From positions 1 to 22,583 of the IMG/VR virus record IMGVR_UViG_3300030329_004153: a stretch of DNA of 22,583 bases. The stretch is one strand, 5' to 3'. This document shows positions 427-20,021 of the stretch, one piece after another. How positions within the stretch are numbered: position 1 is the stretch's first letter; each line of letters opens with the position of its first letter. The notes under the pieces are model-generated. The model did not search any database. It had not been told where the DNA came from and worked only from the letters and a program-made list of their open reading frames with translations. This DNA comes from a virus. Made by a program: the position numbers and the translations under genes.

Positions 427-615
427 TTACTGGTTCCGGTACTCGTCCAGAAATTCCTGGCGACAGAAATAAAGACAGTGATCACATAACCACATTTCTG
501 TCCAGTCGCAGAAGAGAAGACAGTCAGAGGAAGAAGCCCGTCCGCAGTGGTCACAGTAATCGCTTGGTTTGTGCATTGTGCTATCCTTTCCTTTTAGCTT
601 TTTCAGATCGTCCAT
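427..615 (-). CDS. Cysteine-rich mini-protein with CxxC/CxxxC motifs (probable zinc binder)
   Basis: The leftward frame ends at TAA 429-427. Two starts are plausible. ATG 615 (62 residues, MDDLKKLKG...) lies 7 bases after a CACAAGGGA box. ATG 576 (49 residues, MHKPSDYCDHCGR...) corresponds to the start of the paralogue at 1-69 and has its own AAAGGA. Numbered from ATG 576, cysteines at 8, 11, 19, 23, 31, 34 and 38 make CxxC, CxxxC, CxxC and CxxxC pairs, enough for one or two zinc sites, followed by an acidic C-terminus. No family is recognised. Small early phage proteins of this type often bind host proteins, but nothing here shows a target. The extra 39 bases between the two starts carry a second ribosome site and look like an insertion relative to the paralogue. 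Confidence 0.7.
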   Translation of the reverse strand: MDDLKKLKGKDSTMHKPSDYCDHCGRASSSDCLLFCDWTEMWLCDHCLYFCRQEFLDEYRNQ

Positions 616-642
616 TGTTCGGTCCCTTGTGTGGGTTTTTAT

Positions 643-684
643 GCGGGGAAGTGTGAGACGGCACCGTCTCATTCACTTCCCCGC
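643..684 (-). other. Long intergenic hairpin (11-bp plus 6-8-bp stems)
   Basis: GCGGGGAAGTG (643-653) pairs perfectly with CACTTCCCCGC (674-684). After a two-base bulge, GAGACG pairs with CGTCTC around a four-base loop. The hairpin stands upstream of the ACACAAGGGA box of the 427-615 gene, in the position that UUCG hairpins occupy for the other two cassettes. It is not followed by a T-run in the leftward direction and only by TTTG in the rightward direction, so a simple terminator is unlikely. An RNase III-type processing site is a reasonable alternative. Confidence 0.6.
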
Positions 685-1318: not shown

Positions 1319-1394
1319 GTGATTTTTTGTGACTCCAATGTGACTCCAATGTGACTCCAATGTGACTCGTTTGTGACTCTAGTGTGATTTTCTG
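1319..1394. repeat. Helically phased 11-bp tandem array (iteron- or operator-like)
   Basis: Seven units each begin with GTGA. They are GTGATTTTTT (1319), three identical GTGACTCCAAT (1329, 1340, 1351), GTGACTCGTTT (1362), GTGACTCTAGT (1373) and GTGATTTTCTG (1384). The period is 11 bases, or 10 for the first unit, so every GTGA falls on nearly the same face of the helix. The array ends 10 bases before the -35 region of the rightward promoter and is followed by an AT-rich tract. This geometry suits cooperative binding by a repressor, activator or replication initiator. The protein is unknown. Confidence 0.9.
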
Positions 1395-1404
1395 TTTTTT
1401 TTAT

Positions 1405-1432
1405 TTGCATTATGTCCCGTATATGTTATAGT
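1405..1432 (+). promoter_or_regulatory. Rightward extended -10 promoter
   Basis: TATAGT (1427-1432) is preceded by TGT, forming an extended -10. TTGCAT (1405-1410) lies 16 bases upstream as a weak -35. The expected start near 1439 places about 140 bases of leader before the first rightward gene. The promoter is next to the 11-bp array, which suggests direct control by whatever binds there. Confidence 0.6.
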
Positions 1433-1535
1433 TTGAGTAGGTGGCATGGCCGCATCGCTGTCAACTCGGATGATTGGGCAGTGGCGACCCCTGTATGGTT
1501 ATCCGGGTAGGTCTTGCCTTTTTGGTTTTGGTGTT

Positions 1536-1569
1536 GGGTCGGGGTTGTCTGGCCCCGGCCCTGTTTTTT
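1536..1569 (+). terminator. Intrinsic terminator or attenuator in the rightward leader
   Basis: GGGTCGGGG pairs with CCCCGGCCC (nine pairs, one T-G) around an eight-base loop, followed two bases later by six T residues (1564-1569). It lies about 100 bases after the predicted transcription start and ends just before the GAGGTG ribosome site of the first gene. A weaker stem (1483-1489 with 1510-1518, two-base bulge) followed by five T residues precedes it. Termination here would release a leader RNA of about 130 nucleotides. Expression of the downstream genes would then need read-through, antitermination or refolding. Confidence 0.65.
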
Positions 1570-1578
1570 GAGGTGATT

Positions 1579-1842
1579 ATGACGCGGGATGAGTGTGTTG
1601 AGGCACTGGTGGATTGTGAGCATGAGATCATGTTTGCGGACGGTTTTGACGATGCGATTATTGGCGTATTTTTTGGCATTTTTGACCGTCCTGCTGGCGT
1701 GGTGTATGACGGCGGTATGGTTATTGACTTGCTTGTAGAGCGGGACGGGATGACTGAGGAGGAGGCGACGGAGCATTTTGTGTACAATATCGAGGGTTCT
1801 TATGTGGGTCCGGGTACGCCCCTTTTCGTGGCGGTTCAGTGA
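1579..1842 (+). CDS. Small acidic phage protein of the 'GAYVGEGTP'-tail type
   Basis: This 87-residue protein starts MTRDECVEALVDCEHEIMF. Its C-terminus, EEEATEHFVYNIEGSYVGPG, resembles a conserved hypothetical phage family in which an E-E-A-x-E-x-F-x-(F/Y)-N segment is followed by G(S/A)YVG-x-G-TP. The frame is open from 1474, but those upstream 35 codons cross the terminator stem and are unlikely to be coding. ATG 1579 has GAGGTG just upstream and is the preferred start. It is the first gene of the rightward unit, and its TGA overlaps the next ATG by one base. The biochemical role of the family is unknown to me. Confidence 0.8.
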   Translation: MTRDECVEALVDCEHEIMFADGFDDAIIGVFFGIFDRPAGVVYDGGMVIDLLVERDGMTEEEATEHFVYNIEGSYVGPGTPLFVAVQ

Positions 1843-3016: not shown

Positions 3017-3186
3017 CAGACGAACGACTGGAAGCCCTGATTCAGGCCAAAATGGACGCGGCCCGGCAGGCCCTGATGGATTTCTGCCTGCAGGACACGA
3101 CCGGTCCGGGCATCACGTTCGCTGAGCTGCTGGACGCCCCTTCCTACGGCAGCCCCGAACTCAAGACGGAGAACTGGTGGAAATGA
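3013..3186 (+). CDS. 57-residue protein directly upstream of the large terminase
   Basis: A GTG-started frame overlaps the previous stop by four bases (GTGA) and ends in a TGA that overlaps the terminase ATG (ATGA). It fills what would otherwise be a 160-base gap. The sequence VTDERLEALIQAKMDAARQA is a strong amphipathic helix, followed by DFCLQDTTG and a second short helix FAELLDAP. It is in the usual place for a small terminase subunit but is far shorter than most of them and shows no helix-turn-helix. It may be a remnant, an unusually small terminase partner or unrelated. Coupling at both ends makes it credible as a gene. Confidence 0.65.
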   Translation: MTDERLEALIQAKMDAARQALMDFCLQDTTGPGITFAELLDAPSYGSPELKTENWWK

Positions 3187-4898
3187 CGCAAGCAGACATT
3201 GACATCACCCTGCGGGTCCTGCAGCAGCGTCCTGAACACTGGATGGCGACGCACTGCAATATCCGCACCAAGCGGGGCGAGATCATCCCGTTCCGGCTGA
3301 ACGAGGCCCAGATCCGCATTATGCAGGTGATCGAGGACCTGCAGGCGGCGGGCCGGCCGGTGCGGATTATCGTGCTCAAGGCCCGGCAGATGGGCGTCAG
3401 CACCTTTACTGAGGCGTTGATGTACTACTTCTCCAATAACCGCCCGAATATCACCGGCCTTGTCAGTGCCCACGATGACGAGTCCAGCACCTCCATTTTC
3501 CAGATGATCCAGCTGATGCAGGAGGACAATACCGAGCCGCGTCCGACCGACTACACCAACCGCAAGGAGATCATTTACAGTGCTCCGCACCGATCAAAAA
3601 TGGCGGTCCAGACTGCCGGTAAAACGAAGCTGGGCCGTTCGAGTACGCTGCATTTCTTTCATGGCTCGGAGGTGGCTTTCTGGCCGTATGCGAAGGAATC
3701 GCTGAACGCGGTCCACGCGGCCATCTCCAAGGACCCCGGCACCTTCAGCCTGCTGGAATCGACGGCGAACGGTATGGGCGGCGAGTTTTACGAAAGGTGG
3801 TGTCAGGCGGTCAAGGGCGAGTCGGAGTATGTCCCGGTGTTTCTGGCATGGCACGAATTTGACGAATACCGGCTCCCGCCGGGCCGTCACCCCAGTCTGG
3901 ACCCTAATCAGGACGGGGAGCCGTGGTCTCAGGAGGAGAACCGCCGCCGCCGGGAGTACAATCTCGATGACGACCAGATGATCTGGTATCGCTACATCCT
4001 GCGGAACGACTGCGGCAACGACGAGGAACTCATGAAGCAGGAGTACCCGTCAAACTGGCAGGAGGCGTTTATCGTCGGTGGACGGCCCTTTTTCCAGCCG
4101 TTTCGTCTCATGCGGATGGACGCCGAGGTCAAGGTCGCCCCGTTCAAGGGCCGGTTTGAGGCCGGTCAGTTCGTCATGGACGAGACCGGACCCGTCAGGA
4201 TCTGGTATCAGCCGCGGTACGGGGAACCCTACGCGATGGGCTGCGACACCGCCGAGGGCATACAGGACGACGACCACCGGGACCCCGACGCCAGTGTCGC
4301 CTACGTCATGAGCCGGGAACGGATCGTGGTCGCCGAGTGCCACTCCCGCCAGAACGTGGACCTGTTCAGCGAGCAGGCGGACGCACTGGGCCGCCATTTC
4401 AACGACGCCCTGCTGGGTTTTGAGATCAACAACACCTCCGGCGGCGAGATGCGTCAGTGCCTCAAGCGGCTCAATTACCCGAACCTCTACACCCGTGAGC
4501 GGTACGACCAGCACGGGGACGTCACCACCGAGAAAATCGGCTGGCGGACCGATACGGCCACCCGGATGATGATGCTGGGCGACCTGCAGAAAGCGATCCG
4601 TGAGAACCTTGTCCGGGTGCCCTCCGACCGGCTGATGATCGAAATGCGGGCCTTTCACTACGACAAGACCGGCAAGCCGCAGGCGATGACCGGTGAGCAC
4701 GACGATTGTGTGATGGCTTTTGCGATAGCTTACCAGATGCTCATGACAGTCCTTGAGCAGTTTGGCACCTTTACCCTCTCCGACACGGCCGGCAAGAGCG
4801 TTATTGAGCTTGAGGCCCGACCAGTTTTCCAGCCTGACTACGTGATGGGCGGCTGCGAGGAGGAGGATTACACCCAGTATATGGAGTTAGATTCATGA
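3183..4898 (+). CDS. terL: Terminase large subunit (ATPase/nuclease DNA-packaging motor)
   Basis: This protein of 571 residues drives genome packaging at the portal. Numbered from ATG 3183, the ATPase domain has the Walker A variant KARQMGVST (about 66-74) and the Walker B/SEVAFW segment with E163 near 162-166. The coupling motif ESTANG begins at 192. The RNase H-like nuclease domain has D355 in GCDTAEG, E414 in GFEIN and D507/D508 in HDDC, the expected acidic triad. Length is normal for the Terminase_6/RNase H type. ATG 3183 overlaps the upstream stop (ATGA). GTG 3177, five bases after GGAG, is an alternative start giving two more residues. Its stop overlaps the next gene by four bases. Confidence 0.96.
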   Translation: MTQADIDITLRVLQQRPEHWMATHCNIRTKRGEIIPFRLNEAQIRIMQVIEDLQAAGRPVRIIVLKARQMGVSTFTEALMYYFSNNRPNITGLVSAHDDESSTSIFQMIQLMQEDNTEPRPTDYTNRKEIIYSAPHRSKMAVQTAGKTKLGRSSTLHFFHGSEVAFWPYAKESLNAVHAAISKDPGTFSLLESTANGMGGEFYERWCQAVKGESEYVPVFLAWHEFDEYRLPPGRHPSLDPNQDGEPWSQEENRRRREYNLDDDQMIWYRYILRNDCGNDEELMKQEYPSNWQEAFIVGGRPFFQPFRLMRMDAEVKVAPFKGRFEAGQFVMDETGPVRIWYQPRYGEPYAMGCDTAEGIQDDDHRDPDASVAYVMSRERIVVAECHSRQNVDLFSEQADALGRHFNDALLGFEINNTSGGEMRQCLKRLNYPNLYTRERYDQHGDVTTEKIGWRTDTATRMMMLGDLQKAIRENLVRVPSDRLMIEMRAFHYDKTGKPQAMTGEHDDCVMAFAIAYQMLMTVLEQFGTFTLSDTAGKSVIELEARPVFQPDYVMGGCEEEDYTQYMELDS

Positions 4899-8617: not shown

Positions 8618-10777
8618 ATGGCACACTCAATCACGACGACGAATATCCCGGACGGCGAGAAGTCCGAAGAAACCCTGAACGGCCTGATGGACAACATGGT
8701 TGCTCAGGGCCGCAAGCGGACCGACCAGTTTCTGGCGATGTACCGGGACGCGGTGCGATACGTCTACGGCGACCAGATCGGCGACAAGAAGCGGAAGAAG
8801 AACTGGGAGTACCCGGTGATGAACCGCATGTTCGCCGACATGATGCAGGAAATCGCCATGCTGACCAGCAACAATCCCCGTCTGGAGGTGGTCCCGGTCG
8901 AGGACACCGACATCGAGGACGCGAAAATCGTCGATGGGATGCTGCGGTACACATGGTCGGTCGAGCAGAATATGAGGCTCAAGGCCATGCAGGCCGAACT
9001 GGACAATCACCTCTCCGGGTTCATGCTGGCGAAATGGTACTGGGAGCCGACCGAGAACTGGAACGAGGAACGGCAGAATTACGACGGCCGGGCCGAGGTG
9101 GTGATCGTCAATCCCCAGTATTTCGGCTGTGACGAGGAGGTCGAGTCCGCGTTCGACATCCCCACCAAGGCCAGATACCTCTGGACCGAGCGGTGGGTGG
9201 ATAAGGCGTGGGCGGCCTTCCGCTGGGAGAAGTACGCCGACTGGCTGGAGGAGCAGGGCGAAGGCGATCAGGTCAACAAGTCCATGCCCGTCAGGAACAC
9301 GGCGACCGGCACGGACGAGCGGGACTTCAACCGGTCCACCTACGCATGGGCCGGCAAGGAGAAGGAGAACGACACCGAGGAGTTCCTGCAGCGTCGTCTG
9401 GCCGACGCGATCACGTCCCTGACCGGCAACAACCAGAAAAGCCAGTTGGACGCCAACCAGCGGGAGACCGGGCTGGTCAAGGTGCAGGAGTTCTTCATCC
9501 GGGACTACACGCTGGAGGACCTGCCGAAGGAGCTGGAGAATATCCCGTTCGGAGAGCCGGGCACCGAGCACATCCTGAAAATGGACGACAACCCTCTCTA
9601 CTACGACAGCAACCGCCCGAAGGAGGACGGCGAGGGGTTTGAGATGGTGGACGTCTGGCCCCAGCGGAACAAGAACAAGGGCAAGAAGCGGCCCAAGTAC
9701 CCGGTCGGGCGGGTCATCGTCCGGGTGGGCGACAAGGTCATTGTCGAGGACCGGGCCTATGGGGTGATCGACTACGGCGTCTCGCGCCGGATTATCGCCA
9801 GCCAGTGGCCTTTCGCCGTGGCCCCCAACAGCTTCCTGCCGCATATCTGGCAGGGGGTCAACGGGGTGGAGCTGAGCCGCGGGTTCCAAGACTGGATGAA
9901 CACCGTTTCCAGCCATTTCCTGAACAACCTGAAATTCTTCGCGGACCCCCTGAACGTTATCGAGGAAGGGGCCATCCGCAAGGGCAACGACCGCAAGCAG
10001 GAAGCAACGGTCCCCAACTGGGCGGGCGGTATCCTGCAGCTCAAGCGGGGCATGTTCGCCAAGTTCCGCCGTGAGCCTCCCGTCGGTATCCCGGAAAGCC
10101 TGTTCCGCATGTTCGAGCTGTTCAAGCGGCAGGATCAGGACCTCAAGGGCGTCCATGACGTCGCACAGGGCCGGGCCTCCAGCGGCGAACAGACGCTGGG
10201 TGAGCTGCAGATGCTCAACCGGAACACCCGGCTGCGTGTGGCGATGAAGGGTGCCATACTGGACGAGTGGATGAAGAACGTCGCCCGCGGTCTGGTGGAA
10301 CTCAAGCAGGCCCACCTGCGGCCGGACGAGTGGATTCGCATTGTCGGGGCCACCCCGGAGGCGGTCCAGAGTTCGATGAAATGGTCGTCCGGTCTGGCCG
10401 ACGCCAAGGTGGACATCATATTCGAGCCGGCCAGCACCCTCCCGTTCGACGAGGAGAAGGAGCAGGCCAAGTACGTCAAGGCATACGAGTTCGTTGGGGA
10501 CGCGATGCTCAAGGACGTATTGGAAAAACTGAAAATACAGAACATCGACGAGATTCTGGAACGGCACTCCCTGACGCAGGTGCTGACCCAGATCATGGAG
10601 ATGGCCTCCGAGCTGCAGCTGCCGCCCGATCAGGTGATGGCCGCACTGGAGAGGCAGCTGATGTTACAGAGCACCCTTTCAGGTCAGGGGGCACCCCCGC
10701 AGGGCGGCGGACAACCGCCCTCCGGAGGCGGCCAGCCTGCCCAGCCTGCCGAACCGGTAGGGGCTGGAGTCAGTTGA
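8618..10777 (+). CDS. Portal protein
   Basis: This protein of 719 residues forms the dodecameric channel through which DNA is packaged and ejected. Its length and style match P22-type portals (about 725 residues). The N-terminal helices carry FLAMYRDAVRYVYGDQ and NRMFADMMQEIAMLTSNNPR. The wing region includes VVIVNPQYFGCDEEVESAFD, and the stem-crown helices begin with GIPESLFRMFELFKRQDQDL and pass through the EQTLGELQMLNRNTRL segment. Residues from about 680 are a low-complexity Pro/Gly/Gln tail. AGGAG precedes the ATG by eight bases. The stop codon lies inside the TTGACA of the downstream capsid promoter. Confidence 0.9.
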   Translation: MAHSITTTNIPDGEKSEETLNGLMDNMVAQGRKRTDQFLAMYRDAVRYVYGDQIGDKKRKKNWEYPVMNRMFADMMQEIAMLTSNNPRLEVVPVEDTDIEDAKIVDGMLRYTWSVEQNMRLKAMQAELDNHLSGFMLAKWYWEPTENWNEERQNYDGRAEVVIVNPQYFGCDEEVESAFDIPTKARYLWTERWVDKAWAAFRWEKYADWLEEQGEGDQVNKSMPVRNTATGTDERDFNRSTYAWAGKEKENDTEEFLQRRLADAITSLTGNNQKSQLDANQRETGLVKVQEFFIRDYTLEDLPKELENIPFGEPGTEHILKMDDNPLYYDSNRPKEDGEGFEMVDVWPQRNKNKGKKRPKYPVGRVIVRVGDKVIVEDRAYGVIDYGVSRRIIASQWPFAVAPNSFLPHIWQGVNGVELSRGFQDWMNTVSSHFLNNLKFFADPLNVIEEGAIRKGNDRKQEATVPNWAGGILQLKRGMFAKFRREPPVGIPESLFRMFELFKRQDQDLKGVHDVAQGRASSGEQTLGELQMLNRNTRLRVAMKGAILDEWMKNVARGLVELKQAHLRPDEWIRIVGATPEAVQSSMKWSSGLADAKVDIIFEPASTLPFDEEKEQAKYVKAYEFVGDAMLKDVLEKLKIQNIDEILERHSLTQVLTQIMEMASELQLPPDQVMAALERQLMLQSTLSGQGAPPQGGGQPPSGGGQPAQPAEPVGAGVS

Positions 10778-10801
10778 CAAAAACAGACTGTTTAGTATAA
10801 T
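10774..10801 (+). promoter_or_regulatory. Consensus sigma70 promoter for the scaffold-capsid unit
   Basis: TTGACA (10774-10779), 16 bases, TATAAT (10796-10801): both hexamers are perfect. The -35 overlaps the portal stop codon. A start near 10808 would give a leader of about 135 nucleotides before the scaffold gene. The transcript would run to the terminator at 14022-14060 and cover scaffold, major capsid and three decoration-type genes. Confidence 0.85.
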
Positions 10802-17864: not shown

Positions 17865-20021
17865 ATGTGGATAATCAATAACTATAATCACTTTGAACCC
17901 TTCGCTCCTGCCTACAAGCCGAGTCAGAGATTCGACGGCGGTACGAGTGCGGCATTGATCGCCTCCAGCCTGATTGGCGGAGGTAGCCAGATCGGGGGCG
18001 CGGCGATGGCGGGCGGGTCCAGCCCCAGCGTGTTCAGCACGTTCAGCCGGAACCAGAAGGGGATGGACCGGCTCTTGTTCGACTGGCTCATGGGCATCAC
18101 CCGCGACGGTAAGGGCAAGGAGATCTCTCGTGCCCCGCTGCTGTCCAAAATACAGCAGAAGCTCAAGAATCGGCCGGCCACGCCGGTCGCGGGCCTGACG
18201 GACCAGCAGCAGCAGACCATCGCCGGTGCCGGGCAGACGCTGGGCCGTGCCATGAACCTGCGGGGAGTGGATCAGAATTTCCAACAGGACCTGAAGAACA
18301 GGTTTCTGCCGGCAATGGCCGGGGGCGGACGGATTCCTCCGGGCGGCTCGGCGGTGGTAGGAGAGAACCAGTTACCGGAAATCGTTCATGCCCTGCCCGG
18401 TGGCGGGGTGGAGGTCATCCCGAACCCTGAGACGTTCAAGTCGCCGGAGTCTATCGCCCACGCGATGGCAAGCAAGCAGGCGGCCGAACAGGCAACAGGC
18501 GTTCCGGGAAAGGTCACCGGGACGATTTTCGATGATCCCATCGGTACACGCTTCCAGCTGGACACGGACACCGGCAGCCATTTCCTTCGTCCGGGAGACA
18601 TCCCGACATTTGACATTCGGACCGGGCTGGGTTTCCAGACTGGAAGCTCCTTTTCAGATGGTAACGAGTTTTTATCGAATGATGCGTTTCGACCGTTCCA
18701 GCAGGGATTCGAGCAGTCTGACGAGTTCAACAAGTTCGTCAATTCCCAGCGGGGCAATCCGTTCGGTGCCTTCAAAGGGCTGAACACCAACCGGACCGGT
18801 CAAGCCCGTCGGTATTTCGATGCGTTCGGTCGTTATGTCCGGGGCCTTCCGGTGGCGACCGGTGCCCCGCAGGCGATCACCGATGCGATGGGCAACATCG
18901 GCGGTTTCGGCCAGCCGGACTTCTCGCTGGATGCGTTCAACAATTTCCTGACCGGCGGCACCAACTCGACTGTTGGCGGTCCCTTCGGCGGCGGGGCGGA
19001 AGCCTTCACGCTGGGTCTGGACCCGGTAACCGGTCAGGTGCGGATTAAAGACCCCTTCGCCAGTGCGGATGTGTTCCAGAACATCATCAATGAGTACAAC
19101 GCGACGCTGCCGGTGCAGGGCACAACGGCTCTGGGCGGCGGACCGCAGGTTCCGGGGGCCGAGGACCCGCTGGACGGCGGTGCGGTTGTCGGCACAACCG
19201 ATGCAGGCGGACAGACCACCACGCAGGAGGTTCCCGCTGACGACCCCAGCCTTGGTACACAGACCACCGTTGGGACCGGAGACGGCACCAACGGAACGGT
19301 CGATCCTTTGGGTGACGGCGACGGGGCGGACCCGAACGATCCCAATACCAACGACACGGCCGGCCTGCCGGACCAGTCTGACCCGGCCATACCGGGAACC
19401 GAGGCGAATATCCTCTGGCTACAGGAGCAGCTGGCGACCTTCCTGAACCCGTTTGATTCCACGGCGGCTGAAGCGGCGTTCACCAGCTCTGTTGAGGACC
19501 CGGCATTTGAGACGTTCGACGAGAAGACTCGCCCGCGTATCCGGCAGGCGTTTGCCGGAAACGAGAACTTCTTCGGCGGCGGACGAACGCAAACCGAAGT
19601 GGACGCTCTGGAAGACCTGACCGACAAGCTGGAGGAGTCTCGGACTGAGTTCCTGTTCAATGCCGAGGAGGCTCATAAGAATCGTGGCATCGCCGCGGCA
19701 CGGCTTCAGATGGACCTGACCGAGCTTCCCGGCAAGCTGGACACGACCGAGGCGTCCATCAACCGGATCAACGCCCTGACGGCCTCTACGTGGTCAACCA
19801 TCGACATCAACTCCGCACTGGCGGACGCCCAGATCACCAACACGCAGGCAAACATCTACTCGACGTTGATGGGGATATTCAACATGGAACAGAACCAGCA
19901 GCAGCGTGAGTTCGAGGCGGAATTTCTGGATCTGCTGGAAGTGGACGGCTTCAGCATTGGCGGCCTGATGGACCTGTTATTCAAGTATCAGGACCAAGGG
20001 CAGATAGCTTTAGGAGTGTAA
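17865..20021 (+). CDS. Large internal virion / ejection-type protein
   Basis: This protein of 718 residues has AGAGGTG before the ATG. The N-terminal part is Ala/Gly/Ser-rich with a weak hydrophobic stretch (ALIASSLIGGGSQIGGAAMA). The middle has many aromatic F-x2-F motifs. Residues about 418-512 are a disordered linker of Gly, Asp, Thr and Pro, and the end is helical (residues about 580-700, including RTEFLFNAEEAHKNRGIAAA). The arrangement suits a protein stored inside the head and threaded out during ejection. It is followed directly by two more genes of this style, as in T7 and P22 internal/ejection clusters. No enzymatic motif is seen. A tail spike or head fibre is a less likely alternative. 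Confidence 0.62.
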   Translation: MWIINNYNHFEPFAPAYKPSQRFDGGTSAALIASSLIGGGSQIGGAAMAGGSSPSVFSTFSRNQKGMDRLLFDWLMGITRDGKGKEISRAPLLSKIQQKLKNRPATPVAGLTDQQQQTIAGAGQTLGRAMNLRGVDQNFQQDLKNRFLPAMAGGGRIPPGGSAVVGENQLPEIVHALPGGGVEVIPNPETFKSPESIAHAMASKQAAEQATGVPGKVTGTIFDDPIGTRFQLDTDTGSHFLRPGDIPTFDIRTGLGFQTGSSFSDGNEFLSNDAFRPFQQGFEQSDEFNKFVNSQRGNPFGAFKGLNTNRTGQARRYFDAFGRYVRGLPVATGAPQAITDAMGNIGGFGQPDFSLDAFNNFLTGGTNSTVGGPFGGGAEAFTLGLDPVTGQVRIKDPFASADVFQNIINEYNATLPVQGTTALGGGPQVPGAEDPLDGGAVVGTTDAGGQTTTQEVPADDPSLGTQTTVGTGDGTNGTVDPLGDGDGADPNDPNTNDTAGLPDQSDPAIPGTEANILWLQEQLATFLNPFDSTAAEAAFTSSVEDPAFETFDEKTRPRIRQAFAGNENFFGGGRTQTEVDALEDLTDKLEESRTEFLFNAEEAHKNRGIAAARLQMDLTELPGKLDTTEASINRINALTASTWSTIDINSALADAQITNTQANIYSTLMGIFNMEQNQQQREFEAEFLDLLEVDGFSIGGLMDLLFKYQDQGQIALGV

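Follow-up and report, generated by a model that had tools for sequence, protein, structure and literature searches.

A seven-unit, helically phased repeat array ahead of the packaging and structural genes of an uncultured phage: a candidate cooperative operator

The DNA considered here, called the window in the following, is the IMG/VR virus record IMGVR_UViG_3300030329_004153, a fragment of 22,583 bases. By its gene content it appears to derive from a podovirus-like phage. Small leftward ORFs occupy its left side, and a repeat array lies between these and the rightward genes. The nearest leftward ORF (427-672, minus strand) is an ORF call only and matched no family. The leftward small-ORF region contains a duplication (2-77 and 509-584, 91% identical). 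A second duplicated segment (710-774 and 977-1029) belongs to two minus-strand ORFs that have GASQKQQ...HEKLLM in common; the spacing between the matching parts differs by 12 bases and the frame is kept.

The rightward operon starts with a gene of PHROG 13182 (1579-1842, plus strand, E 1e-21), a family of unknown function with homologues in large Bacillus phages and in Tunturi_2. The gene of the terminase large subunit (TerL; 3177-4898, plus strand) lies 1.8 kb downstream of the array; portal (8618) and capsid (11691) follow in the same direction. Neither the portal nor the capsid protein found a homologue among 50,697 annotated phage records, and a phage DNA search with the window as query gave no match; nor did an Rfam search. 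A full-consensus promoter, TTGACA-16-TATAAT (10774-10801), starts where the portal gene ends, upstream of the scaffold and capsid genes. Within the gene 2347-2577 an almost perfect 16-bp palindrome, TGTTCCACATGGAACA (2391-2406), resembles the parS site of ParB; a looser copy is found at 19876.

The array itself (1319-1394, plus strand) consists of GTGATTTTTT, three times GTGACTCCAAT, GTGACTCGTTT, GTGACTCTAGT and GTGATTTTCTG. The first unit, of 10 bases, starts at 1319, the three identical ones at 1329, 1340 and 1351, the others at 1362, 1373 and 1384, respectively. The initial annotation had described GTGA seven times in steps of 10, 11, 11, 11, 11 and 11 bases, helical phasing of the units, three identical copies and a GTGATTTT cap at either end. 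All of this is borne out by direct reading, and TRF and a second repeat search each detected this array. GTGACTC is common to the five central units, GTGATTT to both end units. All five copies of GTGACTC in the 22.6-kb window are inside the array.

The array is far beyond chance. Its period-11 autocorrelation amounts to 38/44 over a 44-base stretch; the maximum in 100 first-order Markov resamplings was 28 (periods 7-24), as was the best value in the window minus the array. A degenerate three-unit pattern yielded four matches versus none expected. The mismatches concentrate in the 4-bp linkers and not in the core GTGA(C/T)T(C/T) (permutation p = 0.002). A spared core with varied linkers points to a row of protein-binding sites under selection rather than to a decaying slippage repeat. 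Folding of the array strand gave no hairpin (0 kcal/mol), and the CRP-type palindrome TGTGA-N6-TCACA has no match in the window.

Next to the array, a T-rich tract (1395-1403, plus strand) leads to a -35-like hexamer; it may act as an UP element. The predicted promoter (1404-1432, plus strand) is of the sigma70-like, extended -10 type: TTTGCA (1404-1409), 17 bp, TATAGT (1427-1432) and a TG one base before the -10. The initial annotation was thus right in placing an extended -10 promoter beside the array. The 10 bases that it gave, however, lead to the -35-like hexamer TTTGCA and not to the -10. Promoters of such quality are not rare in the region (three found versus 2.5 expected in about 3 kb). 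For the roughly 90 bp that start 12 bp before the array end, the match is unusual (p = 0.005 by single-base shuffles, the stretch having been chosen after the promoter was seen). Further downstream, a structured leader is predicted (1438-1578, plus strand, -58.4 kcal/mol, z -2.95), as is, ahead of the first rightward gene, a terminator-like hairpin with a T run (1536-1569, plus strand, 11 pairs, -21.8 kcal/mol, z -4.1). Since the leader is predicted to fold well and the 11-pair hairpin is followed by a T run, a terminator or attenuator is likely.

Relatives by portal and capsid were found in five IMG/VR contigs (L099, L109/L110, L111, L112 and L038); L109 and L110 are near-identical across their overlap. 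The closest long relative, L099, comprises 62,460 bases, and its portal and capsid are about 48% identical to those of the window. Both its ends fall within one apparent DnaB-like gene, so it is probably a permuted complete genome. L099 has seven GTCGCAGAATG-type units in 11-bp steps with the word GTCGCA. They precede TerL by 1.36 kb and a gene resembling that of the terminase small subunit (TerS) by about 0.7 kb. The spacing GTCG-N7-GTCG is unique to this array within the 62-kb record, and again the cores are the conserved part of the units (p = 0.017); the comparison of core and linker was not significant for L127, L118 and L018. Place, period and copy number thus recur in L099 while the word differs. 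The check that the initial annotation had proposed, for arrays at the same place in related phages, has an informative outcome: L099 has one, with another word, while L110 and Tunturi_2, a cultured phage with a layout similar to that of the window, have none there.

The survey was extended to 118 distinct terminase loci of the window's family, viral and prophage; Bacteroidota genomes contained no terminase relatives. With a period of 10 or 11, a score of 31/44 or better and a position up to 4 kb upstream of TerL as criterion, arrays were found in eight loci (the window, L099, L118, L123, L127, L141, L185 and L192), and downstream of TerL in none (769 kb). The idea that arrays are constant across the window's terminase family was dropped in view of these 8 of 118. 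The repeat word is different in each of the eight. They are not fully independent, L118 and L123 looking related. Counting the upstream arrays by non-triplet period gives eight for 10 and 11 together and three for 7, 8, 13, 14, 16, 17 and 19 altogether. Normalised to intergenic length, the upstream excess is modest (p 0.025, window left out). That phased arrays with unrelated words recur ahead of terminase genes is a lead, short of a result. Promoter scans of the other loci do not support a general promoter rule: L099, L118, L123, L127 and L185 lack a good promoter after the array, those of L141 and L192 are weak, and in L118 a consensus promoter lies instead about 480 bp from the array.

With moderate confidence we read the array of the window as a cooperative operator for the rightward (late) promoter, bound by a stacked regulator. 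Several copies of one DNA-binding protein would sit next to each other on the GTGA(C/T)T(C/T) cores, stacked along one helical face between about -120 and -45 relative to the predicted start. The regulator, whose gene probably lies in the early phage region that the fragment lacks or in the host, would control, most likely activate, the extended -10 promoter with its weak -35, from which the rightward packaging and structural operon would start. Given the terminator-like hairpin some 100-130 nt further on, there may be a second level of control before the first gene, read-through or antitermination. Protein binding, the identity of the protein, the sign of control, the use of the promoter and termination at the hairpin are what we infer, since no binder was recognised in the fragment. 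The operator reading is supported by the place of the array, which ends 10 bp before an extended -10 promoter where the rightward operon begins, and by the terminator-like hairpin after this promoter. It is further supported by the confinement of conservation to the cores, here and in L099, by the 7 x 11 bp array of the latter and by the 8 of 118 TerL loci with upstream arrays versus none downstream, and it has published precedents in Alt, Ltr and BldC (PMC13123087, PMC5859096). Against it count the scanned proteins of the window, among which no DNA-binding protein was recognised, as the initial annotation had supposed. So do the relatives, most of which lack an array, the other arrays mostly without a good promoter after them, the modest intergenic-normalised enrichment and the frequent occurrence of GTGACTC 11-bp arrays elsewhere in replication-initiator-like genes or by integrases.

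An iteron-type replication origin or initiator operator, the 11-bp repeats being bound by an O-like initiator of the phage, is a possible, if rather unlikely, explanation. It is a serious rival because relatives carry iteron-like arrays in their O-like genes. In L099 and L110 such 11-bp phased arrays are in the coding linker of the gene, as CGTAACGGA-type repeats in L099, where another set lies between genes next to an AT-rich tract, and as GTCCGG-type repeats in L110. The stretches L102:11268-11330, L100:15749-15800 and L244:3362-3423 contain these arrays. The word of the window, too, is met in similar genes of other phages. A search for GTGACTC arrays with an 11-bp period yielded 22 viral stretches. 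At least 11 of these represent one lineage, in which the array ends a helicase-like gene; several others are inside replication-initiator-like genes (L022, L025 and L035, by sequence also L020 and L023). In these five, the array is in the low-complexity linker of the gene, out of codon step. The period of 11 is not a multiple of three, which, inside genes, points to a constraint at the DNA level. These initiator-like genes, however, were recognised by eye, and Pfam gave no family at its cut-off. Moreover, L099 has one word in its array ahead of the terminase genes and another in its O-gene repeats. The fragment contains no initiator gene and no GTGACTC beyond the array, the replication genes being outside of it, and the array of the window abuts a promoter. 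Of an iteron origin one would expect an AT-rich unwinding tract; here the phased repeats are present, and the adjoining T-rich tract is short and overlaps the promoter. Operator or iteron origin was the choice that the initial annotation had offered; of the two, the evidence leans to the operator by the position of the array.

An improbable alternative is a packaging site (pac or cos), where the DNA wraps around the ring of the small terminase with its helix-turn-helix (HTH) domains touching successive turns. The recurrent place of the arrays upstream of terminase genes fits this proposal, as does the TerS-like gene that follows the array in L099, L118, L123 and L127. TerS rings are mostly nonamers with neighbouring HTHs about one DNA turn apart, a wrapping model exists, and in the pac site of SPP1 direct repeats extend over promoters and the beginning of the TerS gene (PMC4737164, PMC7672466). 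In phages with this terminase family, unrelated phased words might then evolve repeatedly upstream of the terminase genes because the TerS ring reads wrapped DNA with one HTH for each turn. Such an array would be a pac site readable from the sequence, its word co-varying with TerS, an idea to which we likewise assign a low probability. Most relatives, however, are devoid of such arrays, and TerS of SPP1/SF6 shows little sequence specificity in its binding of pac DNA (PMC4737164). Nor was a TerS found in the window with the TerS-like proteins of eight relatives as queries, a search whose sensitivity is limited by the fragment and by divergence.

That slippage has produced a neutral tandem repeat is very unlikely. 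Three units are indeed identical, and many bacteria have GTGACTC 11-bp arrays at dispersed sites in their chromosomes: a stricter pattern found 35 stretches in 85,000 bacterial and archaeal genomes, mostly scattered. In chromosomes of Winogradskyella and Bizionia (L062, L073 and L050), GTGACTCCGTA/GTGACTCCGAA arrays share one 11-bp unit across two genera. A neutral repeat, however, is expected to decay evenly across its unit, which disfavours slippage as an explanation of the spared cores; the preference of periods 10 and 11 over the seven other non-triplet periods ahead of terminases also speaks against it. The exact unit of the window was also sought in viral contigs. The only other match, L018, has the opposite orientation and lies upstream of an ORF next to a terminase-like gene, both assigned by eye.

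Highly improbable, finally, are integrase arm-type sites of an attP, a reading prompted by two viral contigs (L032 and L037) in which a GTGACTC 11-bp array adjoins a tyrosine integrase, as in 4 of the 35 cellular stretches (L040, L055, L069 and L070); it lost weight when the 62-kb L099 proved to have an array yet neither PF00589 nor PF00239. The window has no integrase, no recognised att core and no tRNA gene. Given the varied settings in which it occurs, the word GTGACTC alone does not tell the function; phased direct repeats serve in more than one kind of nucleoprotein complex.

If the operator reading is true, the array pinpoints the main switch for late genes in a group of uncultured phages whose portal and capsid stand apart from those of the annotated phages. 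Arrays of period 10 or 11 upstream of terminases would in that case be a simple, word-independent mark by which viral metagenomes could be searched for late operators, origins or packaging sites. The small size of the array suits it to direct assays in vitro and in reporters.

Among known systems, the iterons in lambda O-like initiator genes resemble the array in their helically spaced repeats, and L099 and L110 have 11-bp sets in O-like genes. The array of the window, in contrast, is non-coding and beside a promoter, and the initiator gene would be outside the fragment. The boxes of the OmpR/PhoB family (PhoB, PhoP of Streptomyces and Mycobacterium) are 7-bp direct repeats with 4-bp spacers, i.e., with a period of 11 bp, and usually comprise two to four units. 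The array shares this layout of 7 + 4 bp but has seven units. In the late control of lambda by Q at pR'-tR', a promoter is followed by a short leader, a terminator and then the late genes. The order in the window, promoter, leader, terminator-like hairpin and late genes, is the same. Q-like loading elements are discussed in PMC11150451. The Q elements are inside the promoter, whereas the window has a seven-unit array upstream of it, and no Q gene was seen there.

BldC binds head-to-tail to direct repeats, with one helical turn between protected tracts, and the array resembles its site at the smeA-sffA promoter in its direct repeats, on which each protomer would take up one helical turn (PMC5859096). 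The winged-helix filaments of the Xis/RdfS type are also built head-to-tail with one turn per protomer (PMC11963761). Unlike the BldC case, the motif of the window is a different one, and the fragment is without a BldC-like protein.

The late promoters controlled by Alt of TP901-1 and Ltr of phi13 serve packaging and structural genes; upstream of it, the TP901-1 promoter has four imperfect direct repeats (-76 to -32) to which Alt binds, and that of phi13 four repeats (-107 to -42) on which Ltr depends (PMC13123087). The 44-bp span of the Alt repeats suggests a spacing of 11 bp. In the window, too, the repeats are just upstream of a predicted promoter (-120 to -45, taking about 110 bp as the criterion) that precedes the TerL, portal and capsid genes on the same strand. 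There are, however, seven nearly perfect repeats versus four, and the regulators are known there, that of phi13 being encoded directly upstream, whereas no Ltr-, Alt- or RinA-like protein was seen among the scanned proteins of the window, the early region being outside the fragment. Since no such regulator gene was found nearby, we do not count the array as a member of the Alt/Ltr type. Most likely it adds one more case to a known class of control sites, among which its length and regularity are unusual.
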